A stretch of 64,000 nt of DNA. It comes from a virus. The notes beneath the pieces are model-generated. The model saw only the letters and a list, made by a program, of their open reading frames with translations, did no database searches and was not told where the DNA came from. The position numbers and the translations under genes are program-made. The stretch spans positions 20,089-84,088 of the IMG/VR virus record IMGVR_UViG_3300037493_003260; one strand, given 5' to 3'. Shown here piece by piece: positions 4,240 through 55,451 of the stretch. The first letter of the stretch is position 1. The number at the start of each line of letters is the position of its first letter.

Positions 4240-6426
4240 TTAGGCTGCGATATTGATAATCCTGCCTTGGAACGCTTCGCAGGTCATTTGAAGTACCGAG
4301 AATTCGGCAATCAAAGTCCTGTAAGCAGACTGAAGCAACGCAAGGTCGATAGCTGACAACGGCATGAGGTCAACCATCTGCACTGCGTTACCGTCTTCCA
4401 ACACTGTTTTGTCGTCGATGACGAGGGCAAAAGAATCACCATGAACGTCTTCCACAATATAGCGAGAGCCGATAATATCGACCAAGCCAAACGGGGAAAG
4501 CCATTTGGTAATACTGATACCAGCGGGAATATCCGCCATCGTACCAGCTCCTGCCTGGAACAGCTTGTAATAGCTGGACATCACCAGTTCGGAAATCTTC
4601 TGCAACTCACGATAACCAACAACAACAGCTTGAGGCTTCCCACCCTTGTTCACGATTTTCTTGCAAACTGCAGTTAAATCGGAAAGAGCTAAGGGCTGAT
4701 TAACGCCGCCAACTTTGCAGTCTTGAACGTTCGTCACAATCTGTTTGTTAAGACCATCGAACTGAAGCGGAGAGACCGAAGAATCGCCGTTGATAATGGC
4801 CCATTCTTCAATCAACGCTACGTTCAACATCTTGGTCTTAATTTGGTGCTTCTTAATATCCGTGTACGTCCCGCCAGCCATTTGTTCAAAGAACGAAACG
4901 GTAGCAAGGTCGCCCACACTGACATAAGGAGCCGATTTGTAAACGTAAGACGGCTGAGTAGCAGTCGGAAGCCCACCTTTGGCAAAAAAAGCATCCTCAG
5001 GGGCAGTTCCACCAAGGAACAGATGACCAGCAGACTGTGCGCCTGCGGAAATGGTCGGAATTAGCTGGTACCAAGCATGCACTAATGTTACGCAATCTTT
5101 CGATTGGGATTGCTATTTCTAGCAACCTCTCATAGTTACCTATGAGGTCGGACTATATCATCACTATACTAGTGTTCGGCGTGTAGTCTCTACGGATTCT
5201 ACTAGGTATTCTTAGTAGCCTTTCCTCGGTATTGTCCTTTGCAGGAGGTTCACCGATATAGCCAAATTTTACAAGGCCCATTGTGTTAAGCCTTGCCGTT
5301 CCCTTGAATCCGATTGAGTCGGTTTCGGAGCGGAGTGTCCGTTGGTGCCATAATCGCCCAAATAAGATTTCTCTTATGGGATTGTTACACTGTAAATTAG
5401 CCAGCGGTTAGGGCATTTCTGCCTAACTCTGCATGTCACCATGCAGTTCGGACTATATCTTCAATTTAAGATTCGTCATGCACTAGGTTTGCGAATGTTG
5501 TTAATTTGATTACTATATCCGCTAAGCCTTCTTAAATGTGTGGCGTTGAGTCTCTGAGGGAGTAAGTTGATACATTCATCTAAACGGTCTGATTTTCGTT
5601 TGATTGAAAATCGACACCCAGCTCTAATGAAAGAAGCTACGTTGAACCTGTAGTGGACAACTGGCTTAATACTACCTGCAAAGCCACCCTTACAGATTAA
5701 CGGTTTGGGCCAAACTGAAACTCCAAGGGAAGTTAAAAGCTTGTTGTATTGAGCAAGTAAATCTGTGTCTGTTGAACAATAGCCTATTTGATGTCTATAG
5801 GTATCAAAGTGCTTCTGTTTAGACTTGCTAATATAACCGTCTCCATCTATAAAGCCAGTGATTAACTTATGCTTTACAATTGGAAGTGCTTCCCAGGTTT
5901 CGTCTGGTAAAGATGACCCATTTTTCGTTGCCAGCAGTACCCATCGGCAGAGTTCGTCACACCGTACAAAAACGTTGTAAAGGAGCTTTCTAGTGCCCCG
6001 TTGCTGTTCAGAAATAGTAACCTTTCTGCCCAGTAATTTTTGTAAAGTAATTGCGACGGACTCAGCAAAGTCTTTATCGGTAACAGATAAACAAAATCTA
6101 TAACAGTTATCTTGTGTAAGATTAATGCATCCATCACTGAAATAAACACCTATGAGATATGCTGTGTTTGAGTCAAGTTTAAATTGTATCATTTTACCTT
6201 TCCTGCTGATTGTCTTCTATACTCTATTATACCATATTTTTACACTTTGGTAATGGTATATTTATCAGAAGATGTTCCAGCAAATAGCCACATTATGAGA
6301 CAGCGATTAACCTATCTCAGCTTGGAGGTCCTCACGAACCAACATCAAGCCGTCAACTGGAGTGGAACTAATAGCCTTCTGAATATCTTGAAGTGCTTGT
6401 TCTACGAGTTGAGCATTGTATGACAT
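4240..6426 (-). CDS. Major capsid protein (HK97 fold), gene split by two group I introns
   Basis: Three exons on the minus strand. Exon 1 runs 6426 to about 6310, starting at an ATG behind AAGGAGA and encoding a helix ending LVREDLQAEI. Exon 2 runs about 5372-5289 and encodes a TPLRNRLNRIQGNGKA segment typical of the start of this capsid family. Exon 3 runs 5079-4240 and begins HAWYQLIPT. The joined protein is ~344-346 residues, the usual size. Exon 2 to 3 is supported by reading frame and by a seven-pair P1 helix with T.G at the splice site. The exon 1 to 2 junction is less certain: 6310|5372 or 6314|5370 both keep the frame. The GTG at 5082, read as a start by simple ORF calling, is the last base triplet of intron 2. 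It sits after the protease-scaffold gene, as expected. Confidence 0.88.
5080..5288 (-). other. Group I intron 2 in capsid gene (209 nt, no ORF)
   Basis: Bounded by GGCAAGGCT|TAACAC and ACATTAGTG|CATGCT. P1 is CAAGGCT with GGCCTTG, giving T.G at the 5' splice site, and exon CAT can pair with ATG upstream of the guide (P10). Core elements are present in order: a P4-like GACAATACCGAGGAAAGG, a P7 strand GACTA, then GATATAGTCC (P3'/P7') and a P9 hairpin CTCATAGGTAACTATGAG. It ends in G. Subgroup IA is likely. Confidence 0.85.
5373..6309 (-). mobile_element. Group I intron 1 in capsid gene, carrying a LAGLIDADG endonuclease
   Basis: About 937 nt between exons 1 and 2. The core has AATCAGCAGGAAAG (P4) just before the internal ORF and GAAGATATAGTCCG (P3'/P7') after it. 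These are followed by CTGCATGGTGACATGCAG, a hairpin that matches my memory of the 3' domain of the T4 td intron (IA2). GAGATAG can pair with CTGTCTC as P1, which would place the 5' splice site at 6314/6313 rather than 6310/6309. The endonuclease ORF lies in the loop between P6 and P7, the usual place. Confidence 0.85.
5476..6192 (-). CDS. Intron-encoded LAGLIDADG homing endonuclease
   Basis: 238 residues with two motifs: LIGVYFSDGCIN near residue 13 and LITGFIDGDGYIS near residue 111. This is the double-motif monomer that cuts an intronless capsid allele to spread the intron. The ATG at 6192 uses GCAGGAAAGG as ribosome site, and this sequence is also part of the intron catalytic core, so ribosome loading and folding compete. 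An extended -10 (TGGTATAAT, 6226-6233) lies upstream inside the intron, but a matching -35 box is not clear. Confidence 0.9.
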   Translation of the reverse strand: MIQFKLDSNTAYLIGVYFSDGCINLTQDNCYRFCLSVTDKDFAESVAITLQKLLGRKVTISEQQRGTRKLLYNVFVRCDELCRWVLLATKNGSSLPDETWEALPIVKHKLITGFIDGDGYISKSKQKHFDTYRHQIGYCSTDTDLLAQYNKLLTSLGVSVWPKPLICKGGFAGSIKPVVHYRFNVASFIRAGCRFSIKRKSDRLDECINLLPQRLNATHLRRLSGYSNQINNIRKPSA

Positions 6427-12000: not shown

Positions 12001-12278
12001 TAAGACTCCTTTTTGTGCTGAGAAAGCCATCGTTTAAGACTAGCCCTTATTTTTAATTTTGTTTCCTTAGTTAATGTTGCACCACCTGGGACTGCTTCTA
12101 AAACTAGCATTTCTGGGTATAGCTGCTGCTTTCTTAAAAGCCTTACCCAACGATGTTTGTAAGTATCAGTTACAACAGTATGGCAATGGGCATAAAGTCT
12201 CTGTTCTAAATTGGCAGTCTGTCCAACGTATCGTACTTCTTTTGTAACTGGATGGCGTAACACATAAATATAAATCAT
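12000..12278 (-). CDS. GIY-YIG homing endonuclease, probably truncated internally
   Basis: 92 residues with IYVLRHP...VRYVGQT.N...R..H, the GIY-YIG core with its catalytic Tyr and Arg. The C-terminal TKETKLKIRASLKRW is the DNA-binding NUMOD3-type motif. The segment that normally carries the catalytic Glu (ERxWI) is absent: EAVPG runs directly into GATLTKE. It lies between portal and fibre genes with tight TAATG junctions on both sides. Likely a decayed mobile gene. Confidence 0.8.
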   Translation of the reverse strand: MIYIYVLRHPVTKEVRYVGQTANLEQRLYAHCHTVVTDTYKHRWVRLLRKQQLYPEMLVLEAVPGGATLTKETKLKIRASLKRWLSQHKKES

Positions 12279-14122
12279 TACTTTTCTTTAGAAGACTCGT
12301 TATCAAAAAATCCGATACGGAGCGTGGCGTTAATTCCTTGTTTTTTCAAGGTATCAATAGTTTTGTCCAGCTGCTCGTATTGTTTTTTGGTTTTCTGTGA
12401 CCGATTTACTTTTATGTTTAAATTACCTTCGTTTTGTTTTTGCTCATGGATAGTAGGCCGCCCTGCGTCGCCATTAACTTGTGGCTCAGGTTTCGGTCCA
12501 GGAGTATCACCTGGAATAGAGGCATCTTCCATGCCTGGTTCTGTGGGCATTCCTGGCATCGGAGGCATCCCTGGGGCAACGCCCATTCCAGGAATTGCTG
12601 CGGTCGGGTCAATCTTTTGTTCGTCAAGTTTATCCAAGTCACTCACGGGCAGCATTCCGACGGCACCCTTAATAGTGTACTCGTCGCCGCCTTCAATTGG
12701 CTTGAGGCCGAGTTTCGTTCGACGTTCATTAATAGAAATCACGCCCGTATCAATGTCGATTTTGTCAATCTGGGCACCCTGGATATTTTCTTTTGCGTCT
12801 TCAGTGTTCCAGGCAAATTTTACGTCGGTAAACTTAAATTCAGTCTTTACAATCTCTTCGTTAAAATACGACTGTAGCAAATTTAGTAGATTATTAACCC
12901 CGCGTGCTTTTGAGAGTTCAACCTGGGATTCCAGATTGGCTTTTCCGAAATCTAGAGTAAACCCAATATCCTGTGGACAAAGCCCATAGCAAGCACATTT
13001 AACAGAGGTGGTCCACTTAAGGTATTCCATCATCTGCATGTCCTGATTTGTTTGGACTCGCATTGGAATAAACTGCATCTTGTCAGAGCCTGACGCAAAC
13101 ACAATCTTGTGTGCTCCGCCACGACCAAGGACTTCGTTCTCCCACATCTTTTGGAAGATAGCCCGTTGGTCTTCAGTAACACTCTCTCCCAGATTTAAAA
13201 CGCCTGGGGGCACATTGGAATGCTTAAAATATTCGATGTTGTATTCATCAGCGTACAGACTGGCCGTAATAATATAAGCTGCAACTTCAAGTGGACTAAG
13301 ACCGTATCCTGTGTGCTGGGGATTCTGGGTAATATATAGAAGCTCGTCATTGGCGAACTCAGCTCTGAGAACACCTTTGTCTTCCCAGGCATAGGCTGCC
13401 TCTGGGGACGCAGGGGCGGTGCCATCTTCGTTTCGGTACAGTTTAACTTCTTGGCCAGGGACTGTGTAAAGCTCTGCAAGGTCTCCATGGTAATTATAGT
13501 TCTTTACCAAAGCCCCTGCATCAAAAATAAGGATGTCTTCCAATAGTAATTCAAGCAAAATCCTAAAGGAGGAGTCTGTGTCACTGGGATGCTCAAAGAT
13601 ATTCTTGACTTTGTATTTGTGTGACTCGGCAGTATCTCGCACTTTCCGAATCATAATTTTAAAAACCCAGCGAATGCGGTCACGTCTTTGGCTATCGTTG
13701 ATACCTGTATCATCCAAAATCACGTCTACCTTATGCTGAACTTCCTCTTTCAAATCCTTGCTTAGAATCTCGGATTCAAAATCAGGGGTATCAAATTCGT
13801 AGGGATTGATGTAGGCTAAAAGCAGATTTTCCCAACGGTCAAGTTCAGCCTCAACAGCGTCGGTATCGGGCACAATATCCCATGCCACGTTGCTGATGTA
13901 GCCTTTTAGAGTACGCCGAATCGCCCAGGCAATTGGGTCAGTATTCGCCAGTCTCTTGAGGGTTTCACTATTCAAAACAAAAGTCTTCTGTTGTTTCTTG
14001 TTTAGAATAGTATTGCTAAAAGCAAATAACCCTTTGCGAGGCATCGGGTTTTCACGCCCAGGGGCGGGCCTGAATGCTTTGTTTAAATTGTTTGTTAAAC
14101 TTTTGAAGAAGTCGTTAGCCAT
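12278..14122 (-). CDS. Portal protein
   Basis: 614 residues, ATG with AAAAGGATATAAAC upstream. The family pattern is clear: LKRLANTDPIAWAIRRTLKGYISNVAW, a DILIFDAGALVKNYN segment, ELYTVPGQEVKL, LLYITQNPQHTGYGLSPLEVAAYII, and NVPPGVLNLG. The dodecameric portal is the DNA entry channel and the docking site for terminase and connector. A Pro/Met/Gly-rich linker near residues 510-550 and a charged tail follow the core. Length is in the upper range for the family. Confidence 0.9.
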   Translation of the reverse strand: MANDFFKSLTNNLNKAFRPAPGRENPMPRKGLFAFSNTILNKKQQKTFVLNSETLKRLANTDPIAWAIRRTLKGYISNVAWDIVPDTDAVEAELDRWENLLLAYINPYEFDTPDFESEILSKDLKEEVQHKVDVILDDTGINDSQRRDRIRWVFKIMIRKVRDTAESHKYKVKNIFEHPSDTDSSFRILLELLLEDILIFDAGALVKNYNYHGDLAELYTVPGQEVKLYRNEDGTAPASPEAAYAWEDKGVLRAEFANDELLYITQNPQHTGYGLSPLEVAAYIITASLYADEYNIEYFKHSNVPPGVLNLGESVTEDQRAIFQKMWENEVLGRGGAHKIVFASGSDKMQFIPMRVQTNQDMQMMEYLKWTTSVKCACYGLCPQDIGFTLDFGKANLESQVELSKARGVNNLLNLLQSYFNEEIVKTEFKFTDVKFAWNTEDAKENIQGAQIDKIDIDTGVISINERRTKLGLKPIEGGDEYTIKGAVGMLPVSDLDKLDEQKIDPTAAIPGMGVAPGMPPMPGMPTEPGMEDASIPGDTPGPKPEPQVNGDAGRPTIHEQKQNEGNLNIKVNRSQKTKKQYEQLDKTIDTLKKQGINATLRIGFFDNESSKEK

Positions 14123-15735: not shown

Positions 15736-16082
15736 TTTTTGTTAATAGCTGTCCGTTTTACAAACGCCTTGAGCAGCCCTCTTTCGATGAGTTCGTCGTT
15801 GTAAGATGTGTCTTTTCCAGAAAGATAAAGGAACGCAAGATATGTTCCAGATTTCTCGGACTTTAAAGACTTGACGGTTACCTCTTTGTTAAGAAGTTTT
15901 TCGGTCAGTGTTTTCTTTATAAGCGTTGCCTTTTCAGGATTTTTATTTCCACGAAATTCCAAAAAGTCTATTCCTGCAAGCCGAAACTCTTGGTTTTTTA
16001 ATACTCCGAAACCCAGGTCAACAGTAAGGATAAGGCATTCCTCGCTGATAATTTCTGTTACAAGTGCCAGATATTTATGCAT
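15732..16082 (-). CDS. Staphylococcal-nuclease-like (SNase) domain protein
   Basis: 116 residues. VLKNQEFRLAGIDFLEFRG keeps the Arg, Asp and Glu of the SNase active site (Arg35, Asp40, Glu43 in S. aureus numbering). The C-terminal KSGTYLAFLYL...YNDELIERGLLKAF is the typical ending, but Arg87 of the usual KYGR motif is replaced. Activity is therefore uncertain. No signal peptide. It lies between protease and HAD genes. Confidence 0.7.
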   Translation of the reverse strand: MHKYLALVTEIISEECLILTVDLGFGVLKNQEFRLAGIDFLEFRGNKNPEKATLIKKTLTEKLLNKEVTVKSLKSEKSGTYLAFLYLSGKDTSYNDELIERGLLKAFVKRTAINKK

Positions 16083-18543
16083 GTAAATCTTCCTTTATTG
16101 CATCTATTGCGGCTTTCGCATCAACCAATCCCACGCCGCATTCATCAGCGGTAAAGGCTAGCGGTTTTGCGGTTGTCTTAAGAAGGTGCTTCACTGCAGC
16201 ACACCGTTCTTTATAATCTTTGGTCCAACTTGGAGCCGCCTCAAGAATTAGTGCACAAATTCCTGCAACCACTGGGGTTGCCATAGAAGTTCCACTCATG
16301 CGTTGGTAGGGCACAGCATCTGATTGAACAGAACAATTATTCATGGGGGTATCGGCACTTTTTACCGATGTAACCCCATTTTCGTAATAGCAACCACCAT
16401 AAGAAGCTTTAGTGCCACCGCCTGGGGCTACAAGGTCAGGCTTGGTTAAATTCACACCGTTGAAAATCACAGGGCCACGGGAACTGTAGCGTGTAATCTT
16501 GTTGTCCCTGTCTACTGCACCGACAGTAATTACTTTTGCAGCACAACTAGGGGACCCAATTGTATTTGCTCCAGGGCCTTCATTTCCTGCGGCCACAACT
16601 ACAACAATGCCTTCAGAAGCCAGTGCATCTGCTTCCCGTGAGATGGCATCATCAGGAGTTCCTTCGCCACCAAGACTCATGGAGATAATATCGGCTCCTT
16701 GGTCGGCAGCCCACGACATTCCCTTAATCACGGTATCGTTTGACCCGTGCCCGCTGTCGTTTAAAACCCGTGCATCTATAAGAACAACTTTTGGGGCAAC
16801 GCCACGATAAAGTTTTCCACCGCCAGCGATTACGCCAGCACAATGCGTGTTATGAGCAATAAAGCCATTTGCTGTATAGTTATGGTTTTTAGTGACTGTA
16901 AAATCATAGAGAGTGGTGTTCGTATCTTGTATTGAAATATTACAAATCTTGTCAGCAACTCGACGATGGCAGTTTGGATTCTTTAGCTTTTTAAAGTGTA
17001 AAAATTTGCCGAGTTCCGTGTTACAAGAGAGGCCTACAGCGTAGCACATATTTTTATTTCCGAAGGTACTCTTATTAGAGCTGTGTTTACAAATCCAAGA
17101 ACGAATACCTAAGGCCTTAAGTAGGGAACAAAGTCCATCGGCAAATTGTTTGCTTCCAGTAATAATTCTAGCTTTGCTATTAATACAGCCATCTCCATCA
17201 ATGGCCCCAGCCAAAAAAGAAAAAATAACACTTCGAGGAGACTTAGAAATAACGTAAGGTAACGTGACAGTTAGTGATTTGTTTCCAATAGGAATTCCAA
17301 GCTTATTAAATAAAAATACCAATTCTTTGTTATAGACGGAAACCCTATACGTATTGCGTTGCCTAAGGTCTTTCTTTACTTTCGGGGCATAATCAAATAA
17401 CTCCTTAAAACCGTCGCAAAAATTTTGAACCAATTCAAGTGAATTACTAGTAAATTCGATTCTGGCGTTGCATCCAGCCTTCTCTTTTTTTAAATAGGAC
17501 AAGTGACCGTCAGTTAATACTAGACCTACTAGGTACGCTAACTTTTCATTAACAGGCAAATTACTACCTCTAAATGGCACATAATGGTAATCATTTATAT
17601 CTAACGAAGAATCTGTAAGTTTGATGCACTCACCGACTTGGAGTTCATCAGCCCGTTTTTCTTTAATTGTCAATTCATGGCCCCTTGTTGAGGTAACCAC
17701 AAAAACCTTGTGCCACGGCGTTAGGGCTAAACTACCACCTCTTGTGGTAATAGTGTACAACTTTCCAGTGTAAGGAATTTTATGTACAAATTCCATTTGG
17801 TCTGGCTCACATATTCCCTGAAGATTACAAGAAATGGTTTTAATGTTAAATCGTTTAATGTCTTTAACAGTAGAGCCATCCGTTAACTGGTAGGATTCTC
17901 CTGGAGATTTTTCGTATACAGTTTCGATTGTTTGCAATCCGCACAACGATGTGTACACTTTGGTATTGGCAGTTATACAGCCATGACCAACGCCATCCAG
18001 TTTTGCAATCTTGGGTGTTTTGGGGCGATTCCAAAACCATTTGCCAAAATAATCAGGCTGTGAAAAATCATACCGAGCAACTACTTTTCCTGCCAGGTCG
18101 GGGTGTCTGTCATTGATTCCTGTATCGACGACAGCGACTTTAATTCCCTTTCCTTCGTACCCTGTTGTGGCTCTCAGTACAGAAACTTCTGTCTGAACTG
18201 CTGCCCTATCCATATAAGCTCTGACTTGTTTCACAGGTTCAATGTCTACGTGGAGTTTCTCCTTGAGCCATTCCATTTGCTCAGAGGTTAACGCTGATTG
18301 AAATTCAACAACCATGGCGTTAATACGCCGATGGAGTTGAATTAGTTTTCCGCCAAATTTTGCAATATCCTGAAGTTTTACGCCTGCCCGATTAAGAACT
18401 AGAAGAGCCGTAAGAAATGCGACTCCTGCAAGAAGGGGGTGCTTTGTAAAAACAGATTTAATGATTTTGCCAGCTTTAAGATATAAGAAATATCTCGGCA
18501 AAACATTTTCTTGACGTTGTAAATTTGTGATTTCTAAACTCAT
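16075..18543 (-). CDS. Subtilisin-like serine protease interrupted by an intein
   Basis: 822 residues before splicing, 445 after. A hydrophobic segment near residues 35-52 could anchor it in a membrane or virion. Peptidase S8 motifs: VAVVDTGINDRHPDL (Asp140), GHG|THCAG (His187) and MSGTSMATPVVAG (Ser). The intein occupies residues 189-565, between G and T of HGTH, two residues after the catalytic His. The C-extein has the oxyanion Asn (VAAGNEGPG). Virion-associated subtilases may process structural or host proteins. Activity should depend on protein splicing. Overlaps both neighbours by a few bases. Confidence 0.92.
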   Translation of the reverse strand: MSLEITNLQRQENVLPRYFLYLKAGKIIKSVFTKHPLLAGVAFLTALLVLNRAGVKLQDIAKFGGKLIQLHRRINAMVVEFQSALTSEQMEWLKEKLHVDIEPVKQVRAYMDRAAVQTEVSVLRATTGYEGKGIKVAVVDTGINDRHPDLAGKVVARYDFSQPDYFGKWFWNRPKTPKIAKLDGVGHGCITANTKVYTSLCGLQTIETVYEKSPGESYQLTDGSTVKDIKRFNIKTISCNLQGICEPDQMEFVHKIPYTGKLYTITTRGGSLALTPWHKVFVVTSTRGHELTIKEKRADELQVGECIKLTDSSLDINDYHYVPFRGSNLPVNEKLAYLVGLVLTDGHLSYLKKEKAGCNARIEFTSNSLELVQNFCDGFKELFDYAPKVKKDLRQRNTYRVSVYNKELVFLFNKLGIPIGNKSLTVTLPYVISKSPRSVIFSFLAGAIDGDGCINSKARIITGSKQFADGLCSLLKALGIRSWICKHSSNKSTFGNKNMCYAVGLSCNTELGKFLHFKKLKNPNCHRRVADKICNISIQDTNTTLYDFTVTKNHNYTANGFIAHNTHCAGVIAGGGKLYRGVAPKVVLIDARVLNDSGHGSNDTVIKGMSWAADQGADIISMSLGGEGTPDDAISREADALASEGIVVVVAAGNEGPGANTIGSPSCAAKVITVGAVDRDNKITRYSSRGPVIFNGVNLTKPDLVAPGGGTKASYGGCYYENGVTSVKSADTPMNNCSVQSDAVPYQRMSGTSMATPVVAGICALILEAAPSWTKDYKERCAAVKHLLKTTAKPLAFTADECGVGLVDAKAAIDAIKEDLHA
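16849..17979 (-). mobile_element. Intein with LAGLIDADG endonuclease inside subtilisin gene
   Basis: 377 codons. Starts with Cys (CITANTKVYT, block A); block B is LTPWHKVFV. Two LAGLIDADG motifs are LAYLVGLVLTDGHLS and FLAGAIDGDGCIN. Block F/G is YDFTVTKNHNYTANGFIAHN, ending His-Asn, with Thr as the +1 residue. All residues needed for class 1 splicing are present. The endonuclease motifs look intact. Confidence 0.92.
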
Positions 18544-20040: not shown

Positions 20041-22842
20041 CTATTTAGTTTCTGCCCATACTCTAACGAGTCGAGCTAATTTGATTTTTTTGCTTAACTG
20101 GTCAATGCGTGCCATTTGAAAACTACGCTTAAGTGCATCTTTTAGTCCAGCTTTTCCCAGTGCTGCCATAGCACCAACATTTGTAGATGAACCAGATAAA
20201 TACCGAAATAAAACAATACCTGCAACAGTGCCAAACGCTTGCCAACCAATGTCGGCGATTGTGTCACCTGCAGCACGAGCTAAGCTGCGTCCCGCACGTC
20301 CCGCCGTCTGCACTGCTATATCCTTCACAGCTCTGGGCAGAACTAAAGCGGCCTCTGATACCTGGCTGTGTGGTTTCTCTGTTGGCTTTTGTGCACCGCC
20401 AGGTTTCTGTGCTCCCGTAGGTTTTGGCCTGCCTCCAAGAGGAACACCCTCGCCAGCCCAACGTTCACGGGCGGCTTCTGCATGACCCTGTGGGTCACCA
20501 CGCCAGCCACGCTGGCCTGACCCACCAATGCCAAAAAAACCCTTGTTGATGTCCTGGACTGTATCCGCTTTTTCTGAAAAAGTCGAAGCTGGCTCAGTCA
20601 GTTCTCTTTCGGCTGTTCCTGTACCAGGCGTACGTTCAGGCCCTTGTGGTTTCTTTCGCTGACGCTGCGGGTCATCCGTAGAAGTTTGGTCTTCTGGTAA
20701 CTCATCGTCAGTTTCTACAGCCTCAGCTTCAGAATCATCGGCAGCCTCCGTGGGTTGCTCGGCTTCTGGAGATTGTGCTGTGTCACCTTGCAGAGTGGAC
20801 AACAATTCTTCTACTTTTGCTTGAAGAGGTTGAATGATTGCTTGCATCTCATCTTCACTTAAAAGCTGCTGGTCTCTTGCAAGTAATTCCAAATCTTTGA
20901 GTGCTCCATGCAGGGCAACCAAGGAATCATCGACAGACTGGACTTGTGCAATGGATTCCTGGGTGTTTGCTTGGGCTAAATCTTCCGTGGGTTTCTCGAC
21001 ACGGTACACTTTTGCTAAGCCACGAGAAACGACCAAAGCAGCTGCTTTAGAAAAAGTGCATAATGCCTTCTTATATAGAATGTCCTTCCCCGCCTTTAAA
21101 TGGTCTTCTACAATTTGATTGATAGCTTCATCCGTAAGGTCAGGATGTTCAGCCCGTTCGACGTTAAACATGGCCGTGCGATTTGGAATCATGTCTACGT
21201 CTACGATTTCGTTTTCCTCAGGTTTTTCTGATGTTTTCATAAGGTCTTCCGCTTTCATTCCTTTAGCGTATTCTTTTCGCCACTCGCCTAAAGTTTTTTC
21301 ACTTGATAAATTTCTGAACGGTTCTTTAACGCCAAATACCAGGTCGTCTGGAAAATTTTTATTTCGCAAAATGGAATCAAAAGTATCAGCATAATTTCTG
21401 GAAGCCGACCCTTTTGCGTGTTCCATTTCTGTAGACCAATTCCAAAGATTAAGTTTTCCTGGCCCGCTAAGTGTAGGGCTATATGTCATCCGTGCCCAGC
21501 GGGTGTCCATGTCTCCCTGAACCTTTGCTCCATAGTAGTCCACTAGTTGAACAAAAATATCAGAATGTTCTCTGCTAGCAGCACCAACACCGTAGTAGCC
21601 GTTTGTACGATTATAAAGAATTGCCATTTGGCCAGGAGTAGCCCCCCGTCTAGTGGCATCCCCAACTTCTTTTAGAACGTCTAATCCAAACCCCTCGTCG
21701 TGCAGAGCTGGCTTCCAACTGTGTGGAGCATATTCGTACCGTTCTCGTACTGTGTCAACAAATTTTGCTTGCCCAATCGTGGACGCATTAACAGGAATGT
21801 CTTTGCCAGCCACGCTATCGTAAATTGCAAGTTGCTTATGCTTTTCTGCAGCCAGTAGGGCTTGATAACGATTGTTATGGGGAACCGATATGTCTAAATG
21901 AACCTTGCCCGTTTCTTTATTATGCCAGGTTCCGAGATAATTTCCTGGTTGTGCCAGGGTTGCTTTATTCTGCTTGATGTAACCATCCACACTGTGTGCA
22001 GTAAAGTTTTTTATAGGTATAACTTTTTCCTGTGCTTTAAACGGAGAAAACATGTATCGTGCCACGGGGACTTCGCCTGCCATGGAAACCGTGTGGCCAC
22101 CATTTGCAAGCGTAGTAGCGTAAGCAGAACGTCCTACGCCGCTGGCTGGAAACCGTGCAGTCACATTTTTGGCAGCGTTTGCTATCAATCCCCTGACAGC
22201 TGTACTTCTTAAAGCAGCGATTCCACCAGCGGCAATTGCCACGATGGCCGCCGTCTTGACAGCGGTTTTTAAACCGTCATGCAAATCTGTTTTGGAACGA
22301 GGAGCTGCTGGTTCATCGACTTCAGGGCCAGGACTGTCACCACGTAATGCGGCTGCTCTGGCGTGTCCTTCAGGGTCACCAAACCAAGCCTTTGCTAAAT
22401 TTTTTGCAACCTGGTTACCTTCAAGATATTCAAGCATTCTTCGCTGGGTTTGAATGCCTTCTCTGGTATCAGATTCTCCAACTTTACGATTATCACCAGT
22501 GTACAGCACCCACTTGTCACCTTCAGTGCGAATCCAATTGCCTCCAGCATCCCGACGTTTCTTTTCAACTTCTTCTTTAGGGGCTTTGGTATCTAGGCCA
22601 CGTTCGTCTGACATGATAACTGGCACATCTGTGTGCCCAAGTTCTTTTAAAGCAAAAAACCGATGGTGTCCATCGGTTATCATCTTCCCTGGTTTTCCGT
22701 CGTTGTCTACTTCTGAGTAGACTATCGGGTAAACTTTGCCTGTTCGCTGGATTTCGGCTTTGATGTGGGAAACCTTTACAGGGTCGATGTCCCTGTTGTA
22801 AGGATTAGTGAGAAGGTCTTCTATTTTGCAAGTTTCAGTCAT
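20041..22842 (-). CDS. Large protein with N-terminal ParB/Srx-like domain, probably virion-internal
   Basis: 933 residues. The start (IEDLLTNPYNRDIDPVKVSHI ... MITDGHHRFFALKELG) is a ParB-like nuclease/CTPase fold domain with the conserved DGHHR motif. The rest is not recognised as one family. A motif GDPEGHARAA/GDPQGHAEAA occurs twice (about residues 155 and 775). Two Ala/Gly/Ile-rich segments (about 200-220 and 870-900) are hydrophobic enough to enter membranes. A Gln/Glu/Pro-rich linker lies between. The size and mosaic layout resemble ejected 'polyvalent' phage proteins; this role is inferred. Confidence 0.65.
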   Translation of the reverse strand: MTETCKIEDLLTNPYNRDIDPVKVSHIKAEIQRTGKVYPIVYSEVDNDGKPGKMITDGHHRFFALKELGHTDVPVIMSDERGLDTKAPKEEVEKKRRDAGGNWIRTEGDKWVLYTGDNRKVGESDTREGIQTQRRMLEYLEGNQVAKNLAKAWFGDPEGHARAAALRGDSPGPEVDEPAAPRSKTDLHDGLKTAVKTAAIVAIAAGGIAALRSTAVRGLIANAAKNVTARFPASGVGRSAYATTLANGGHTVSMAGEVPVARYMFSPFKAQEKVIPIKNFTAHSVDGYIKQNKATLAQPGNYLGTWHNKETGKVHLDISVPHNNRYQALLAAEKHKQLAIYDSVAGKDIPVNASTIGQAKFVDTVRERYEYAPHSWKPALHDEGFGLDVLKEVGDATRRGATPGQMAILYNRTNGYYGVGAASREHSDIFVQLVDYYGAKVQGDMDTRWARMTYSPTLSGPGKLNLWNWSTEMEHAKGSASRNYADTFDSILRNKNFPDDLVFGVKEPFRNLSSEKTLGEWRKEYAKGMKAEDLMKTSEKPEENEIVDVDMIPNRTAMFNVERAEHPDLTDEAINQIVEDHLKAGKDILYKKALCTFSKAAALVVSRGLAKVYRVEKPTEDLAQANTQESIAQVQSVDDSLVALHGALKDLELLARDQQLLSEDEMQAIIQPLQAKVEELLSTLQGDTAQSPEAEQPTEAADDSEAEAVETDDELPEDQTSTDDPQRQRKKPQGPERTPGTGTAERELTEPASTFSEKADTVQDINKGFFGIGGSGQRGWRGDPQGHAEAARERWAGEGVPLGGRPKPTGAQKPGGAQKPTEKPHSQVSEAALVLPRAVKDIAVQTAGRAGRSLARAAGDTIADIGWQAFGTVAGIVLFRYLSGSSTNVGAMAALGKAGLKDALKRSFQMARIDQLSKKIKLARLVRVWAETK

Positions 22843-23665: not shown

Positions 23666-24193
23666 CTATTGAAATTTATTGTATTTTTGATGATTTAAAA
23701 TTGCAGGAATAATTTGCAAATTCCATGGAACATGCAAACCGCAAACAAGGCTATTTTTAAGCGGGACGATATGGTCCACGTGATGCAAAATTCCTGTACT
23801 TTTAGTCATTTCTTTACAACGAAGGTAAACAGCTTTTAATTCGTCACTGTTAACCCAGAAAGGTTTGGCGTGCCGTTTGGCAGCTCGGCGACTTGCATGA
23901 TGAGCATTCATAATGCCCAAGTTAGCTTTTCGCCAAGCTTTATTATAGGCTAAAACTTTGCCTTTATTGGCCAAATAGTGCTTGTGCACTTTTGCACGAC
24001 CTTGTTCTGGATGTGTTTTAGAATAATGAGAAACAACTAACTTGTAATGCTCAGAATTTTTAGACTGCCAGGGTCGTACATATTTAGAACTGTGACAGCT
24101 TTTGCAATGCGAATAAAGTCCGTCTTTTGCTCTACTGTCTTTATAAAAGTCGAGTTTGCTGAAGAAACTCTTGCAAGTTGCACACTGCTTCAT
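23666..24193 (-). CDS. Free-standing HNH homing endonuclease
   Basis: 175 residues. An N-terminal CATC...CKSC zinc knuckle typical of this phage's HNH paralogues precedes a basic helical spacer. The HNH core is HHVDHIVPLKNSLVCGLHVPWNLQII...NHQK. It overlaps the terminase stop by four bases (ATGA), so it sits at a classic homing site beside an essential gene. Likely intact. Confidence 0.88.
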   Translation of the reverse strand: MKQCATCKSFFSKLDFYKDSRAKDGLYSHCKSCHSSKYVRPWQSKNSEHYKLVVSHYSKTHPEQGRAKVHKHYLANKGKVLAYNKAWRKANLGIMNAHHASRRAAKRHAKPFWVNSDELKAVYLRCKEMTKSTGILHHVDHIVPLKNSLVCGLHVPWNLQIIPAILNHQKYNKFQ

Positions 24194-26877
24194 ACTTTTT
24201 TACCATAGAATGTTAAGTGGCTTTTTTCATCATCATCAGGCCTACGAAAGCCGTTGCTGTTTGCTAACCGTGTGGTTCCTGCAACCCCTGCGCTAAACTG
24301 TGCTTTGGCATTTTTGATGCACAAATTGACAACAGCGGCAACTGCATCTGCAAGGTCCTTGCTTCCTTCTTTGCGACCTTCTTCAAGTGACCTTCGATAA
24401 GACATCTCTGGATGGTCCACTTTGCCGTTTGGTTTTCGGATGAGTTCTTCGCACTCGCGAATGAAAACTGGGTGGTGATAAATGTCAAGCAAACCTTTGT
24501 AGATTTGTTCTTTCAAGGTGTCGTAGGCTTCGGTACTTCTGTCAACTGATTGTACCTCGGCAGGGATACCTTGCTTAATTAAAAGCTGCACGCTGTCAAC
24601 AGAGTTGTGAACAAAGATACCAGCAGACAAAGCAAAATTATGTGTGGCTGGAACTTCGATGTCGTATACGTCTTCATACCCAGCAAACTCAACAGAGACA
24701 ACTTTATGGTTGTTGGCACCGCACTTAGTTTTGCTAATTTTATCCTTGGTTTCTTGGCTTCGTTTTTTGCCCGTCCAATAACCAGGATTGCCCTTGTGAG
24801 CATCAGACATCTTCTTGGCATACACGGGGTCTTGCCAAAGTTTTTTAATGCTAGCACTAATCTTTTTTGCATTGGCAGCATCGGGCGGCTTTAACAGTGC
24901 TGGGAGATTAAACTTTTTGTTTCTCTCAGCCATCAACTGTGCTTGCCGTTTGCGTTCACCAGGAATGGCCCAACGTTTTTCACTAAGGGCTTTGTGTAGT
25001 GCTACGTGTTTCTTTACGTGAATATAGACCAAGTTTTCTGGGCTATTGTTTAAAGGGTTAAAATCTTTATGATGAACAACAAAATCTTTTGGCTTAGGAC
25101 CATAGCAGGTAGCAGCAACTACGTTATGCGTAAAATCCCAGGTTTTAGTCTCAGCATTATAAATCTGTTCATACTGTCGGACAGAGCCATCCTTACGCTT
25201 GTAAGGCTTCACGTATTTTGTATACAAAGGCATTAAACTGTCACCAGGCTGTAAAAACTGCACCTGTCTGTAGGTGCCATCACGCATGAGTATCGGGTGG
25301 TCTGGAGTAAATTCAACAGTCTCGCCGCTATCCAAAGTTACACGGTATACGGGAACTTTGGTACCAGTTTTTCTTACAGGCTTACAAAGTGCTGGAACAA
25401 TGCATCCAGCCTTTAAATCGTAAGAATATATCCACGTTTCCTTGGTAAGTTCGTCTATTCGTAAGTCGTTACCATTCAACAACTTAACCTTGTTGCTTCC
25501 TAAAGTACATTGCCAGCCATCATACGTAACCATTTTAATATTAAAGCCACTTTTATAAAGACCTTGTATAAACTGACGAAATTCATCAAAAATAATCTCT
25601 TGTCCAGGACGTGCTCGGACCTGCATCATAAAATCAATGACTGCAGCAGGCTGCTTCTGTGTACTAATATTTGCAGTTGAAAGTCCCTCAGCTTTAGTCA
25701 ATTCTTTTATGTAGTCGTCGCTGAGATTGATACTCTTATTACGAGTAAAGTGCCCCATGGCAATGCCCGAATAGTCACCAGATTCTTTGCCTTTGGCCAA
25801 GTCAATGTGTATAAAATAAGGCTGATTCTTAATCGGTCTAAAGAAATCCTTGAATTTCAATTTTAAAATGTCGTTTGTCCAAATGGCATCTCCTTCAACA
25901 GGAGACACACGATTGGGGTTTATGATGTCCTTGATGCGAGATTTGTATTTAAAATAGCCCTCAGCGGCTGTTGAACCCTCACACTCGTAGATACGCTTTG
26001 CGTCTTCAGGACTCTTTAAATAGTCATCTGCGAAGTCAGCCTTGGTACGTTTAACATTCCAAACCCACGTTGGGGCTTTCACGCGAAAGGTCTTTGCTTC
26101 CTTCTCTGCCTGCTGATAACGAATCATCATAAAATCGTTGTCGTCACGTTTGTATGATATCAACATCGTTTTACGATTAGAACCAAAGCGCGTTTTTTGA
26201 GTGGAGACAAGGGCTGTGTAGAGCTTGTCGGCCTTGCCTGGGTCAAAACCCCCCACTTCGTCGAAGATGGCCAGAAGAATATTTAAGCCTTCGCCAGTGT
26301 ACTCTTCGCTATCCAGTGAATAAGCCGTGATAGCCTTCGGAAATTTGATTTCACGCGTTTGAATGTCTGCTTTAAGGTCAAGACCGTGTTCCTCAAACCA
26401 GTTCTTTTTGGTTTTTGGATTTCTGCAAACGCGAATCATAGCAATAAGATTTTTAAAGAACACGTCTTTGGCAAGTCGTGCGTTTAGAGAAACGTTAGCT
26501 AAGTCGATTGCGGACTCAGGGGCATCCTCGGAGTTGTTATTGATGCCTAGCATTTTCTGCGGATTTCTCATGCACAGCAATTTATACACACAGTAAAGAA
26601 AGACCTTACAAATCGTTCGGTCCTTCCCACCCCCCTTGCCCACCAATGCAATACCCTCGTCATATGTGGCATCCCATATCAGTGGGTCAGTGCCAAGCAT
26701 GGCCTCCACGAATTTCTGCTGCTCTGGATAACAAGGCTCGTGCAAAAACTTTTCAAAGAAGACCGAAGGTGAAACTGGAATCTCTTCCCAAGTGTCATCA
26801 GTGCGGCGCAATGATTTGCTAGCAGCTGACGCTGCATTTTTTACCAGTTCAAAATCACTATTGTCCTGGAGTGACAT
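24190..26877 (-). CDS. terL: Terminase large subunit with intein
   Basis: 895 residues before splicing, 593 after. The ATPase has a Walker-A-like GKGGGKD at residues 80-86 and Walker B LLAIFDEVGG with Asp206-Glu207. The nuclease half begins YFIHIDLAKGKESGDYSG (catalytic Asp), has IIFDEFRQFIQGL, and ends with DLADAVAAVV after the intein. The intein lies between TYDGWQ and SVDSVQLL, a conserved part of the nuclease domain. TerL pumps DNA through the portal and cuts concatemers. Follows the small subunit with a 20-bp overlap. Confidence 0.93.
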   Translation of the reverse strand: MSLQDNSDFELVKNAASAASKSLRRTDDTWEEIPVSPSVFFEKFLHEPCYPEQQKFVEAMLGTDPLIWDATYDEGIALVGKGGGKDRTICKVFLYCVYKLLCMRNPQKMLGINNNSEDAPESAIDLANVSLNARLAKDVFFKNLIAMIRVCRNPKTKKNWFEEHGLDLKADIQTREIKFPKAITAYSLDSEEYTGEGLNILLAIFDEVGGFDPGKADKLYTALVSTQKTRFGSNRKTMLISYKRDDNDFMMIRYQQAEKEAKTFRVKAPTWVWNVKRTKADFADDYLKSPEDAKRIYECEGSTAAEGYFKYKSRIKDIINPNRVSPVEGDAIWTNDILKLKFKDFFRPIKNQPYFIHIDLAKGKESGDYSGIAMGHFTRNKSINLSDDYIKELTKAEGLSTANISTQKQPAAVIDFMMQVRARPGQEIIFDEFRQFIQGLYKSGFNIKMVTYDGWQCTLGSNKVKLLNGNDLRIDELTKETWIYSYDLKAGCIVPALCKPVRKTGTKVPVYRVTLDSGETVEFTPDHPILMRDGTYRQVQFLQPGDSLMPLYTKYVKPYKRKDGSVRQYEQIYNAETKTWDFTHNVVAATCYGPKPKDFVVHHKDFNPLNNSPENLVYIHVKKHVALHKALSEKRWAIPGERKRQAQLMAERNKKFNLPALLKPPDAANAKKISASIKKLWQDPVYAKKMSDAHKGNPGYWTGKKRSQETKDKISKTKCGANNHKVVSVEFAGYEDVYDIEVPATHNFALSAGIFVHNSVDSVQLLIKQGIPAEVQSVDRSTEAYDTLKEQIYKGLLDIYHHPVFIRECEELIRKPNGKVDHPEMSYRRSLEEGRKEGSKDLADAVAAVVNLCIKNAKAQFSAGVAGTTRLANSNGFRRPDDDEKSHLTFYGKKV
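24604..25509 (-). mobile_element. Intein with HNH endonuclease inside terminase gene
   Basis: 302 codons, beginning Cys457 (CTLGSNKVKLLNG) and ending FALSAGIFVHN, with Ser as +1. Block B is VEFTPDHPIL and block F is VYDIEVPATHNF. Between them lies an HNH domain (DFVVHHKDFNPLNNSPENL ... HVALHK) and a NUMOD-like helix (SQETKDKISKTK). Unlike the subtilisin intein, it uses an HNH nuclease, so the two inteins were acquired separately. Confidence 0.92.
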
Positions 26878-27587: not shown

Positions 27588-28019
27588 TTAAAATAGTTTG
27601 TCTTTCCTGTAGGAAACGACTCGTTTACAGTGCTGTAAAAACTGTTCGGTAGTCAAACTAGCCTTTGCTATATTGCATGTACGGCAGCAAGACCTGCAGT
27701 TTTCTGGAGTGTATCCTAGGGTGCTATCAATTCTATCTATGCCATAGTTGTCATTAGGAGTACCACAATAGCTGCAAGGTTGGCTTCCTATGGATATGAA
27801 CTGTACTTTTGTGAGTAACCAGGTGAGCTTTCTACTGGTAGCCCCTGATTTCACACGACCGTAACGCTGGTTTTGCTGCGGGGTCAGGGGCATCGGAAGG
27901 CCTAGTAGCGCATTGCGAACACAGTGTTTGCATGTTTTAGGATTGCTGTTCTGATACTGTTCCGAAATGGGGTAATATCCACTGCAAGTTTTACAGCGAA
28001 ATCTAGCACTATTGGGCAT
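27588..28019 (-). CDS. Free-standing HNH homing endonuclease
   Basis: 143 residues. N-terminal CKTC...CKHC knuckle, then CSYCGTPNDNYGIDRIDSTLGYTPENCRSCCRTCNIAK, an HNH/treble-clef nuclease where the conserved G-DR-D and the last Asn are visible. Between the sigma-like gene and the small terminase. About a hundred bases of sequence without a gene separate it from the terminase start. Confidence 0.85.
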   Translation of the reverse strand: MPNSARFRCKTCSGYYPISEQYQNSNPKTCKHCVRNALLGLPMPLTPQQNQRYGRVKSGATSRKLTWLLTKVQFISIGSQPCSYCGTPNDNYGIDRIDSTLGYTPENCRSCCRTCNIAKASLTTEQFLQHCKRVVSYRKDKLF

Positions 28020-28400: not shown

Positions 28401-28929
28401 TGCCCGTGTCTCCCTTTCTCCAGGTATCTGTCTTGTGCTCTTCCTGCTTGTCCCAGCCGTCCAATACCCAAAGGCTGGAGCAGAGCGAGCAAATTTCAAG
28501 AAAGCTTTCCTCTGCAATGTTGACTCTCAAATCCATCAGCAGTTCATATATTCGTGCCAGGTACCCCTCACGCTCACATCCCCGTACGGATTCCTCGTTG
28601 TACCTCCGCAGTTTTTCAACGAAGACTGGAAAAAACTCTGTCTTGGTTGCCACGGTTGTGCATTTCATTTCAGCGGTACCCCCTGGGCTAAGGTGATAGC
28701 CCCGCTTCAGCCAGTTGATGTACTGGTAGCAGCCAATTTTCAATAAGTCTTTTTCGAGGGTCATATTACGGTATCGCTTCACGTACTTTGCTTGTGTGCC
28801 AATCAGCCAATTCCAACCGAAGTCTTCCACCAGTTCGTCAGTGGCTTCCTTCCCTGCATTCGTGGAAGCATACTTCACGCCGCCGTACTCAAATTGATTT
28901 CTAAGTAAATCAATAAACGTAACACTCAT
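28384..28929 (-). CDS. Hypothetical protein, possible nucleotide-metabolism fold
   Basis: 181 residues. GTQAKYVKRYRN...KDLLKIGCYQYINWLKRG resembles the helical core of DUF3310/phage nucleotide-kinase-like or dATP/dGTP diphosphohydrolase-related proteins, where KYxxRY and KDLxKxxxY helices recur. The rest is helical. Overlaps the sigma-like gene by 17 bp. The assignment is weak. Confidence 0.45.
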   Translation of the reverse strand: MSVTFIDLLRNQFEYGGVKYASTNAGKEATDELVEDFGWNWLIGTQAKYVKRYRNMTLEKDLLKIGCYQYINWLKRGYHLSPGGTAEMKCTTVATKTEFFPVFVEKLRRYNEESVRGCEREGYLARIYELLMDLRVNIAEESFLEICSLCSSLWVLDGWDKQEEHKTDTWRKGDTGNGTKV

Positions 28930-29453
28930 TTTGGAACTCCTCTATGGTTTAATTTGTGCATTTTATCCTTTAATCGTAATTTAAATTTACCAAGCTGCTT
29001 GTGTTTAATAGACTTCATTCCCCACAGTTTTCCTTGCAATAAGAGTTGTTCATAATCGAATAAAACAGCCACCTGAGCTTTTTTAATTACAAGATACGGA
29101 TAAATAGCCTTAGCAAGGAACAGGGCCTGCTGGTATTGAATTTCCAAATGGTAAATTGTTTTTCTAAACTTGTAATTAAATCCAGGCCCTTCGTAGTATT
29201 TACGAACTGTGTTTTTTGATAAATTATGCTTATTAATGTATCCCCCGAATATCTTGTGCAAGAGTTTGATTATCTTTAGATTTGTATTCGTTACTACAAT
29301 AAGAGGCACCACAGCTACATGCCGTTTGCCAGAACTCCCTAAAGAACTCTTTTTTGTCAACGTGATGCATCCGTCACCATCAATAAAACCCGCAGTATAT
29401 GCTAGAAAATTATCGGAGACCCCATGCGTTCTATCAATAAAAGTTTTTGTCAT
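28926..29453 (-). CDS. Free-standing LAGLIDADG homing endonuclease
   Basis: 175 residues with a single clear motif (FLAYTAGFIDGDGCITL near residue 16), then the usual beta-sheet and basic helices (KIIKLLHKIFGG, YHLEIQYQQALFLAKAI). Single-motif proteins act as homodimers. Overlaps the next gene by ATGA. No intron flanks it. Confidence 0.88.
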   Translation of the reverse strand: MTKTFIDRTHGVSDNFLAYTAGFIDGDGCITLTKKSSLGSSGKRHVAVVPLIVVTNTNLKIIKLLHKIFGGYINKHNLSKNTVRKYYEGPGFNYKFRKTIYHLEIQYQQALFLAKAIYPYLVIKKAQVAVLFDYEQLLLQGKLWGMKSIKHKQLGKFKLRLKDKMHKLNHRGVPK

Positions 29454-29464
29454 GCAGTTTCTCC

Positions 29465-30784
29465 TTAATCGAAATCGTCAGGCCCCAACGGGTTGGAGTC
29501 CTGGTTAGGTGCTAGAAATCCCAGCACTGGTTCTATTTTTTTATTACGTACTTTTTCGATGTTGTTGTAAAAATATTCGGGCTTTAAAATTAGCAACCCC
29601 TCACTTGTCAGGGACTTTTCGTCAATGGCGGTAATTGCAGCCGTGACCACAAGTTCTTTCATGTGTGCGCCAGTATATTTGTCCGTTTTTTGAGCAATGT
29701 CTTCTAGATTCACGCCATCCATTTTGTAGGTTTTTGTGTACAGTGCCAGCATCCGCAATCTGCCCTCGACACTAGGAAGGCCAATATCCAGGATACGGTC
29801 GAAACGCCCAGGGCGATTTCGCAAGGCGGTTTCTACGTTGTCTACCTGGTTGGTAGTCGCAATCACAATGATAAAATGATTTTCAACAAGGCCGTCCAAC
29901 TGGTTCATTAGTTCCCCAAGCAATGAGGCATTCCTAACAGATTGTCTGTCTTCACTGTAGAGGTCAATGTCTTCGAGAAACAGAATTGACGGGGACAACT
30001 CACGGGCCATGTCACAAACTACTTTGACATGCTGGCTGCGCTCTAAAAATCTAGGAGTGACCCACAGAAACGTGCAGTTCGTTGAATTGCAGATAATCTT
30101 TCCAATGAGAGTTTTCCCAGTCCCTGGGGGACCTTGAAGGATTATACCCCTTTTAAATTTGATGTTGTTTTTCCTGTAGACTTCGATATTGCTAATCATT
30201 CCGTCGATATTCAGTTGCAGTTCCGTTTTTACTCTCGTAGGAATAACAACGTCATCCCAGGTATAGTTACTGGTTGGAATAAACGACAGGCTAGCATCAA
30301 TTTTGGCATTACGAAGATAGTTATGTTCTTTGGCAAAAGCTTCCAGGTCCTTTAAAAAGGACTTTGCGCAATCTTCGGCAGTGTCTTGATAGAAAACGGT
30401 TACCCACCAACCCTCGTTATGGTAGCTGTTTTGGAATTCCAAAATAAACCGCGTGTTTTCTTTTTCAAGGAAAAAGCAACCTTCAGTAAGGCAGCTCTTA
30501 TAGGTCTTGGGGGCAACCTCAATGTCCTCTTTTTTGGGTGTTTGAAATCCGTTACTGCCGATACTTTTCTGGGCCAGCTTGACAAAGCGGTTTGTTTCAA
30601 GAAAAGCGTCTAAAGAAGTAACAATGATATTACGGAAATATCGTCCAACATACTCCTCGTATACCCGAAAGATGCGGTCTGCTGGGCAGCCAAGAAAGAC
30701 TTGGGCTTCATGCAGCATGTAATCATTATGCCAAGCACCCAAACGGATAGCCTGAGCGAGTCCCTCAATAGTTTCTTTTCGCAT
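29465..30784 (-). CDS. AAA+ ATPase
   Basis: 439 residues. Walker A GPPGTGKT at 218-225, Walker B SILFLEDID, sensor 1 ATTNQ, and an arginine-finger segment NRPGRFDR, matching the classic AAA clade (FtsH/BCS1-like). The first ~180 residues do not resemble a known domain and contain a Trp/Phe-rich beta region. Such phage ATPases unfold or remodel protein complexes. Its substrate is unknown. Upstream lie three very small genes. Confidence 0.85.
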   Translation of the reverse strand: MRKETIEGLAQAIRLGAWHNDYMLHEAQVFLGCPADRIFRVYEEYVGRYFRNIIVTSLDAFLETNRFVKLAQKSIGSNGFQTPKKEDIEVAPKTYKSCLTEGCFFLEKENTRFILEFQNSYHNEGWWVTVFYQDTAEDCAKSFLKDLEAFAKEHNYLRNAKIDASLSFIPTSNYTWDDVVIPTRVKTELQLNIDGMISNIEVYRKNNIKFKRGIILQGPPGTGKTLIGKIICNSTNCTFLWVTPRFLERSQHVKVVCDMARELSPSILFLEDIDLYSEDRQSVRNASLLGELMNQLDGLVENHFIIVIATTNQVDNVETALRNRPGRFDRILDIGLPSVEGRLRMLALYTKTYKMDGVNLEDIAQKTDKYTGAHMKELVVTAAITAIDEKSLTSEGLLILKPEYFYNNIEKVRNKKIEPVLGFLAPNQDSNPLGPDDFD

Positions 30785-31465: not shown

Positions 31466-32034
31466 TTTGTTGCCTCAGTCTCTGGCTTCTTTGAAGCCTT
31501 CTCTACATCAAACCCTGCCCCGAATTTCTGAATGTGCTCTTTGTATTCTTCGCTCAGAAAATCCGTCAACTGTTTGAAGTTGTGAAAGATTTTTCCGCCA
31601 TTCTTAAAGTTATCTCGTAGCAACGAAAGAATCCAGTCATTGAATTCTGTCACGGCTTGGTAACTCACAGTGTAGATGGGAATGCCCTTTTGCCATGCCT
31701 CCACAATTTCGTGAACAGTTCCGCCATACTTTTTCGCAGGGTCATACAAAAGAATCAGAAACTTTGATGTATTGACGCAAGTTAAATCCGAGCGACGAAT
31801 ATCTGCTAATACCCTATCCCAGATTAGCCATTCTCCACCACGTTTCAGATTCTCCAGTTTCTTTTTTTGTTCTTCCATGGTTGTAGCCAAACTGTGGTTG
31901 CACTCTGACTTGCATGGGTCTAAAACAATGAACCCATCATCGGCCAAAGTTTTCGTGAGTTTTTCACGCCAACCGATGCCCCCATCAGCAGCATCCTGGA
32001 TACTTCCAACTAAATATGTGCTGTATCTTAACAT
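31462..32034 (-). CDS. Nucleoside 2-deoxyribosyltransferase-like protein
   Basis: 190 residues. YLVGSIQDAADGGIGWREKL, FIVLDPC, a WDRVLADIRRSDLTCVN segment and GGTVHEIVEAWQKGIPIYTV fit the nucleoside 2-deoxyribosyltransferase / YtoQ-like fold: a glycine near the start, an Asp in the second block and a Glu in the helix (HEIVEA). Family members handle the N-glycosidic bond of nucleosides or NAD-like compounds. A second relative is at 51981-52439. Could act in nucleotide salvage or counter-defence. Confidence 0.7.
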   Translation of the reverse strand: MLRYSTYLVGSIQDAADGGIGWREKLTKTLADDGFIVLDPCKSECNHSLATTMEEQKKKLENLKRGGEWLIWDRVLADIRRSDLTCVNTSKFLILLYDPAKKYGGTVHEIVEAWQKGIPIYTVSYQAVTEFNDWILSLLRDNFKNGGKIFHNFKQLTDFLSEEYKEHIQKFGAGFDVEKASKKPETEATK

Positions 32035-32579
32035 GTTTGAATCCTATCCGTATGCCTTGCTATTTGCATACAATGCTCAATAAACTCCGAGCGAGAAGAA
32101 TCTACTTTCATCCAGTTACACAGTTTGCAACAAGAAACCAGATTCTCTAAAGTGTACCCTATGGTGTTATCTACACGGTCTAAGCCAATGGTATCAATGG
32201 AATTTCCACAATAGCTACAGGATTTATTCCAGAATTGCATAAACTCTGCAAAAGAAATATCGAAAGATACTGGCTTGGACCTTTTGGAAGCATTGCGTCT
32301 GTAGTTTCCAAAACACTGCCTGGGCGACATACGGTACTTTTCCTTGTTTTTGATTTTGTTCTTTCTTTTGTAACCCGCAACAGCTTCTGGATGAGTTGCC
32401 TGCCAAGTGGCTACCCGTGTCAGTGCAGCATTGGTATGTTTTATATAGTAGGCAGCCTGCTCAAGTTTTATGCATTCTTTACAGAGACACGTAAGTCCGC
32501 TTTTTGTAGATTTGTTATTATAAAACTGCCTTGAAGTTTTAAACTTTTTACAGCAAGGGCACAGTCGGTAACTTCTCAT
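32028..32579 (-). CDS. Free-standing HNH homing endonuclease
   Basis: 183 residues. CPCC...CLCKEC knuckles at the start, then CSYCGNSIDTIGLDRVDNTIGYTLENLVSCCKLCN..K. The C-terminal 60 residues are nearly the same as those of the gene at 41692-42180, showing recent common ancestry. Overlaps both neighbours. Confidence 0.88.
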   Translation of the reverse strand: MRSYRLCPCCKKFKTSRQFYNNKSTKSGLTCLCKECIKLEQAAYYIKHTNAALTRVATWQATHPEAVAGYKRKNKIKNKEKYRMSPRQCFGNYRRNASKRSKPVSFDISFAEFMQFWNKSCSYCGNSIDTIGLDRVDNTIGYTLENLVSCCKLCNWMKVDSSRSEFIEHCMQIARHTDRIQTC

Positions 32580-55216: not shown

Positions 55217-55451
55217 TGCTGACTGGTTCCTTCTGCTCACCGATAACTTTATCAAGCGGAACAGCGTAACACAGTATCGTTCCATTTGATTCGGTAGGAT
55301 AAGACCGAATAATAGCCCCGTCAATCTCAAAGATTTTATCCTTAAGACACCCTGATTTCGTAAATTTTATTTTATTTATCCCTGAGATAACCTTGTATTT
55401 TGCAATTAAAACTATCTTGTCATGCCATCTCGGATTCCAAATTTCAATCAT
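55209..55451 (-). CDS. Small hypothetical protein
   Basis: 80 residues, mostly short beta strands (IVLIAKYKVISG, IDGAIIRSYP, GTILCYAVPLDKVIG). Overlaps the polymerase stop (ATGA) and the kinase start. Could be a polymerase accessory. Not recognised. Confidence 0.58.
   Translation of the reverse strand: MIEIWNPRWHDKIVLIAKYKVISGINKIKFTKSGCLKDKIFEIDGAIIRSYPTESNGTILCYAVPLDKVIGEQKEPVSNA

Follow-up and report, generated by a model that had tools for sequence, protein, structure and literature searches.

A gene for a subtilisin-like (peptidase S8) protease in this virus genome is interrupted, inside the codons for its catalytic-histidine motif, by a 377-residue class-1 intein carrying a LAGLIDADG homing endonuclease. 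We regard it as highly probable that the intein is a recently arrived selfish element that splices constitutively, and not a switch for the protease. All coordinates refer to the window, i.e. the whole 64,000-nt stretch of DNA that was analyzed.

An intein in the HGTH motif of a phage subtilase

The features of the protease gene were located as follows.

16075..18543, minus strand: S8 (subtilisin-like) protease precursor ORF, 822 aa, intein-interrupted (PF00082, 5e-57)
17980..18543, minus strand: N-extein, residues 1–188, C-terminal end ...DGVGHG, with catalytic Asp140 and His187 (PF00082, 24.5 bits alone)
16849..17979, minus strand: intein, residues 189–565, 377 aa, Cys1...His376-Asn377 (Pfam/NCBIfam matches, empty site in orthologs)
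16075..16848, minus strand: C-extein, from Thr+1 (T566) to the stop, with oxyanion Asn654 and catalytic Ser753
17983..17985, minus strand: codon of catalytic His187 (HGTH), from the alignment to phage S8 proteins
17506..17532, minus strand: LAGLIDADG motif 1, LVGLVLTDG, with intein Asp157 (helix 145–157 in the predicted model)
17188..17214, minus strand: LAGLIDADG motif 2, LAGAIDGDG, with intein Asp263 (helix 249–263 in the predicted model)
18379..18435, minus strand: hydrophobic stretch, residues 37–55 (mean hydropathy 1.9 over 19 residues; helix predicted in an ortholog)
18235..18348, minus strand: pro-domain-like beta-beta-alpha-beta segment, approximately residues 66–103 (ortholog model and Foldseek alignment)

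The Pfam match of the 822-aa ORF to Peptidase_S8 was split into two stretches. The intein junction was G188/T566, one residue past the catalytic His187 (the first H of HGTH), giving HG/TH, and removal of the intein in silico left a complete subtilase of 445 aa with the contiguous sequence ...DGVGHG/THCAGV.... An earlier note on this DNA, made from the letters alone, had placed an intein at these positions and had it split HGTH between G and T; this was borne out to the base by the ORF, Pfam and NCBIfam. The lengths it anticipated for the spliced products (377 and approximately 445 residues) agree with the computed ones, and its assignment of the gene to the virion region holds, the gene lying in the packaging/head cluster between the large terminase (TerL, 24190–26877) and portal (12278–14122) genes.

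Pfam searches with the 822-aa ORF identified Intein_splicing (PF14890, 62.6 bits versus a cut-off of 35.8), LAGLIDADG_3 (50.4 bits versus 22.5) and Hom_end (25.1 bits versus 21.1). The NCBIfam model intein_Nterm matched from residue 189 (Cys189) onward with 37.4 bits (cut-off 24.5), and the intein_Cterm match ran to residue 566, FIAHN/T, with 31.6 bits (cut-off 15.6). As the curated cut-offs were passed at both ends and the orthologs are contiguous across the junction, the intein match is far above chance. By sequence, the element has the hallmarks of a class-1 intein: Cys1 in block A, the TxxH of block B as TPWH (LTPWHK; His90 is invariant among aligned inteins), and a block F (YDFTV...NHNY) with the penultimate His376, Asn377 and the +1 nucleophile Thr all in place; furthermore, the exteins make one known protein of which intein-free homologues exist. 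The two motifs of a LAGLIDADG homing endonuclease were found with both catalytic aspartates intact. The splicing residues and the two endonuclease motifs listed in the earlier note were thus all confirmed.

The best PDB sequence relatives of the intein were endonuclease-bearing VMA inteins (7qsu, 3e-12 over residues 2–370). A predicted model of the intein was weak (pLDDT 56); its best fold matches, to be read with this low confidence, were TliVMA, PI-PfuI and PI-SceI, and I-DmoI for the endonuclease part. TliVMA/PhoVMA (7qsu/7qst), PI-PfuI (1dq3) and PI-SceI likewise contain a Hint splicing domain into which a LAGLIDADG endonuclease with two motifs is inserted, and they too have Cys1 and a His-Asn end, but they reside in ATPase, RNR or similar hosts instead of an S8 protease, and identity is only approximately 25%. 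In named phages, the nearest inteins were those in TerL/helicase of the crAss-like phage cr53_1, Microcystis phage Mic1 and Bacillus Nitunavirus, at 23–30% identity and with one full-length match. These nearest named-phage inteins sit in terminase, helicase and ribonucleotide reductase (NrdE) genes at 22–30% identity, and the TerL/helicase ones differ from the S8 intein in host protein and insertion site. The IMG/VR intein loci at which the junction was read were mostly terminase-like (...HN/TPKG...).

Empty sites in relatives and a probable homing history

Orthologs of the protease were found by an alignment-based IMG/VR search; single-sequence IMG/VR searches with the extein and with the intein gave no matches. 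Three close S8 orthologs (69, 56, and 53% identical) were identified on phage contigs, on all of which the gene order SNase, HAD-like, small genes, portal was kept. The HG/TH site was uninterrupted in 3/3 orthologs (HGTW, HGTH and HGTH; contig records L184, L185, and L186), and the flanks of the intein matched the orthologs residue by residue. No intein was found in the three ortholog records, versus two in the present genome, nor in the records of four further relatives, and no insert of intein size was present among the best 80 IMG/VR S8 matches. Three further portal-based relatives end short of the S8 locus. The occupied allele was seen once (n = 1) among the records compared, which may lack near-identical ones. 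In a more distant relative with the same portal cluster (G007, record L232, 104,918 bp), an S8 gene was not detected, so that not all members of the wider group have the protease.

In the closest ortholog (L100, 4001–5323) the motif reads HGTW, which makes the target site different at the +2 codon. The idea that HGTW represents a homing-resistant allele was dropped, since it also occurs in two distant S8 proteins from phages, L121 and L137. Candidate inteins at the same site in SP-15, MTATph1, vir520 and faecal phages were also rejected: the tblastn extensions upstream of residue 565 were spurious, and the ORFs read uninterrupted HGTH/HGSH. In the MAFFT alignment, the HG of intein-free rows was put on the last two residues of the intein.

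At 37.0%, the GC content of the intein lay below that of the exteins (46.0%) and ranked lowest among 629 sliding windows of equal size across the 64,000 nt. In the homing cycle, an intact endonuclease together with vacant alleles accords with the invasion phase (PMC8966425), and the empty sites in relatives, the low GC content and the intact-looking endonuclease point to this phase for the S8 intein. We infer that the intein invaded the phage subtilase gene recently, at the DNA for HG/TH, the motif that is most conserved in the protease. Once translated, the intein would excise itself via a thioester at Cys1, transfer to Thr+1 and cyclization of Asn377, whereby HG would be joined to TH to give the normal 445-residue protease. 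The endonuclease would cut the intein-free alleles of co-infecting relatives, into which the intein would be copied by repair. The precursor would in all likelihood be inactive, but this would be a by-product of the insertion only, with splicing serving no regulatory role.

Protease architecture and the question of a splicing switch

After splicing, the S8 catalytic set would be complete (Asp140, His187, Asn654 and Ser753 in precursor numbering, aligned to phage S8 proteins). Subtilases of phages and bacteria (S8A; SP-15 protease, mycosin-like, Tk-SP, and subtilisin E) share the same Asp/His/Ser/Asn set and the subtilisin fold; unlike them, the present protein has the intein, an N-terminal hydrophobic helix and an extra segment ahead of the HGTH motif. 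The hydrophobic residues 37–55 are possibly a membrane helix. The predicted model of an intein-free ortholog (L101, pLDDT 84) gave subtilisin matches at a TM score of 0.9, normalized by target length, and its longer Foldseek alignments spanned the pro-domains of pro-subtilisin E (3whi) and ProN-Tk-SP (3afg). Although the Pfam I9 propeptide gave no match in the S8 protein at E 10, these alignments through pro-domain-bearing subtilisins suggest that the protein likely carries its own pro-domain in a classical zymogen arrangement, and ordinary zymogen control is thus probably present. In the same model, the intein site falls within the first turn of the helix that begins at the catalytic His (residues 199–208). 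The precursor would consequently be unable to form the active site; in addition, the intein parts the catalytic Asp and His from the catalytic Ser. An inactive unspliced precursor is hence plausible on structural grounds.

The earlier note had gone further and proposed splicing as an on/off switch for the protease, a claim that was not borne out. Under this proposal, the phage has turned the intein into a post-translational switch, and delayed or conditional splicing confines protease activity to a particular stage of infection or assembly. The disrupted catalytic-His helix and the split catalytic set agree with it, and conditional splicing is known from other inteins (PMC10663303). However, an intein in an active site always ties activity to splicing by construction, which gives no evidence for regulation, and its position alone is no argument either, as inteins, those of phages included, are as a rule inserted next to invariant residues of active sites (PMC5050341). 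Retention among orthologs, as expected of a conditional switch, was 0/3 despite conserved synteny, and the endonuclease motifs are intact as in a selfish element. Moreover, the genome encodes a separate S78-type prohead protease, the probable pro-domain would already provide zymogen control, and the more distant relative manages without a detectable S8 gene. Taken together, we judge a switch function very unlikely.

A splicing-defective intein, leaving a dead gene or solely a truncated or partly cleaved product, is at least as doubtful: loss of the protease could be tolerated, given the relative in which S8 was undetected, but every class-1 catalytic residue is in place, the ORF is open throughout, and the extein retains Asp, His, Asn and Ser as well as 69% identity to an ortholog. 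That an assembly artefact fused an intein to the S8 gene can practically be dismissed: the allele comes from a single metagenomic virus contig, but the junctions are in frame at the exact intein boundaries, with flanks as in the orthologs. A constitutively splicing selfish intein remains the best explanation.

Insertion site and genomic context

The kind of element, a class-1 intein with a homing endonuclease, is entirely known. HG/TH of peptidase S8 may be a new intein insertion site, with the present intein possibly the first there. In the open-access literature, no relevant paper on an intein in a subtilase or S8 protease was found. The junction pattern HN/TH[V,C]AG, which covers only the T+1, His-Asn form, gave eight matches in IMG/VR, none of them in the S8 frame, and none in this frame among 80 matches listed for GTDB contigs. 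Given one residue pattern, 80 listed GTDB matches and the open-access literature, 'possibly first at this site' is the limit of the claim. The combined proposition, that no earlier intein is known from the catalytic-His site of S8 and that timed or conditional splicing keeps the protease inactive up to a particular point in infection, is most improbable.

The finding makes peptidase S8, at its catalytic-His motif, a further host site of inteins, and the occupied and empty alleles provide a clean pair for homing tests. If splicing were conditional, the gene would represent a natural intein-gated protease, which would be of value to phage biology and could also serve as a tool. On the present evidence, the S8 intein exemplifies the known rule that inteins occupy the part of a gene whose DNA varies least.

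Homing elements abound in this genome, in line with the selfish reading of the S8 intein. A second intein is present in the large terminase (24604–25509, minus strand; residues 457–758 of the TerL ORF) with a DGWQ/S junction, HNH and NUMOD3; it is missing from L185 and L186, the two relatives with a readable terminase. Two tandem group I intron matches were found on the minus strand at 5129–5330 (65.9 bits) and 5429–5701 (44.6 bits, just below the cut-off), adjoined by a LAGLIDADG ORF (5476–6192) and a major capsid exon (4240–5082). The capsid gene seems to be split by an intron, perhaps a double or nested one. A further LAGLIDADG ORF (28926–29453, minus strand) and, by eye, three small ORFs resembling HNH-type nucleases (23666–24193, 27588–28019, 32028–32579, minus strand) were recognized.

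In the virion gene region, a 933-aa protein (20041–22842, minus strand) combines a ParB-like domain at its N-terminus with several copies of a GDPxGHAxAA motif, and it is poorly conserved among relatives. An AAA+ ATPase with an AAA lid (29465–30784, minus strand) resembles cellular AAA proteins and matches several PHROGs of unknown function. At 55448–58003 (minus strand), a uracil-DNA glycosylase domain is fused to the front of a DNA polymerase of family A that includes a 3'-5' exonuclease.
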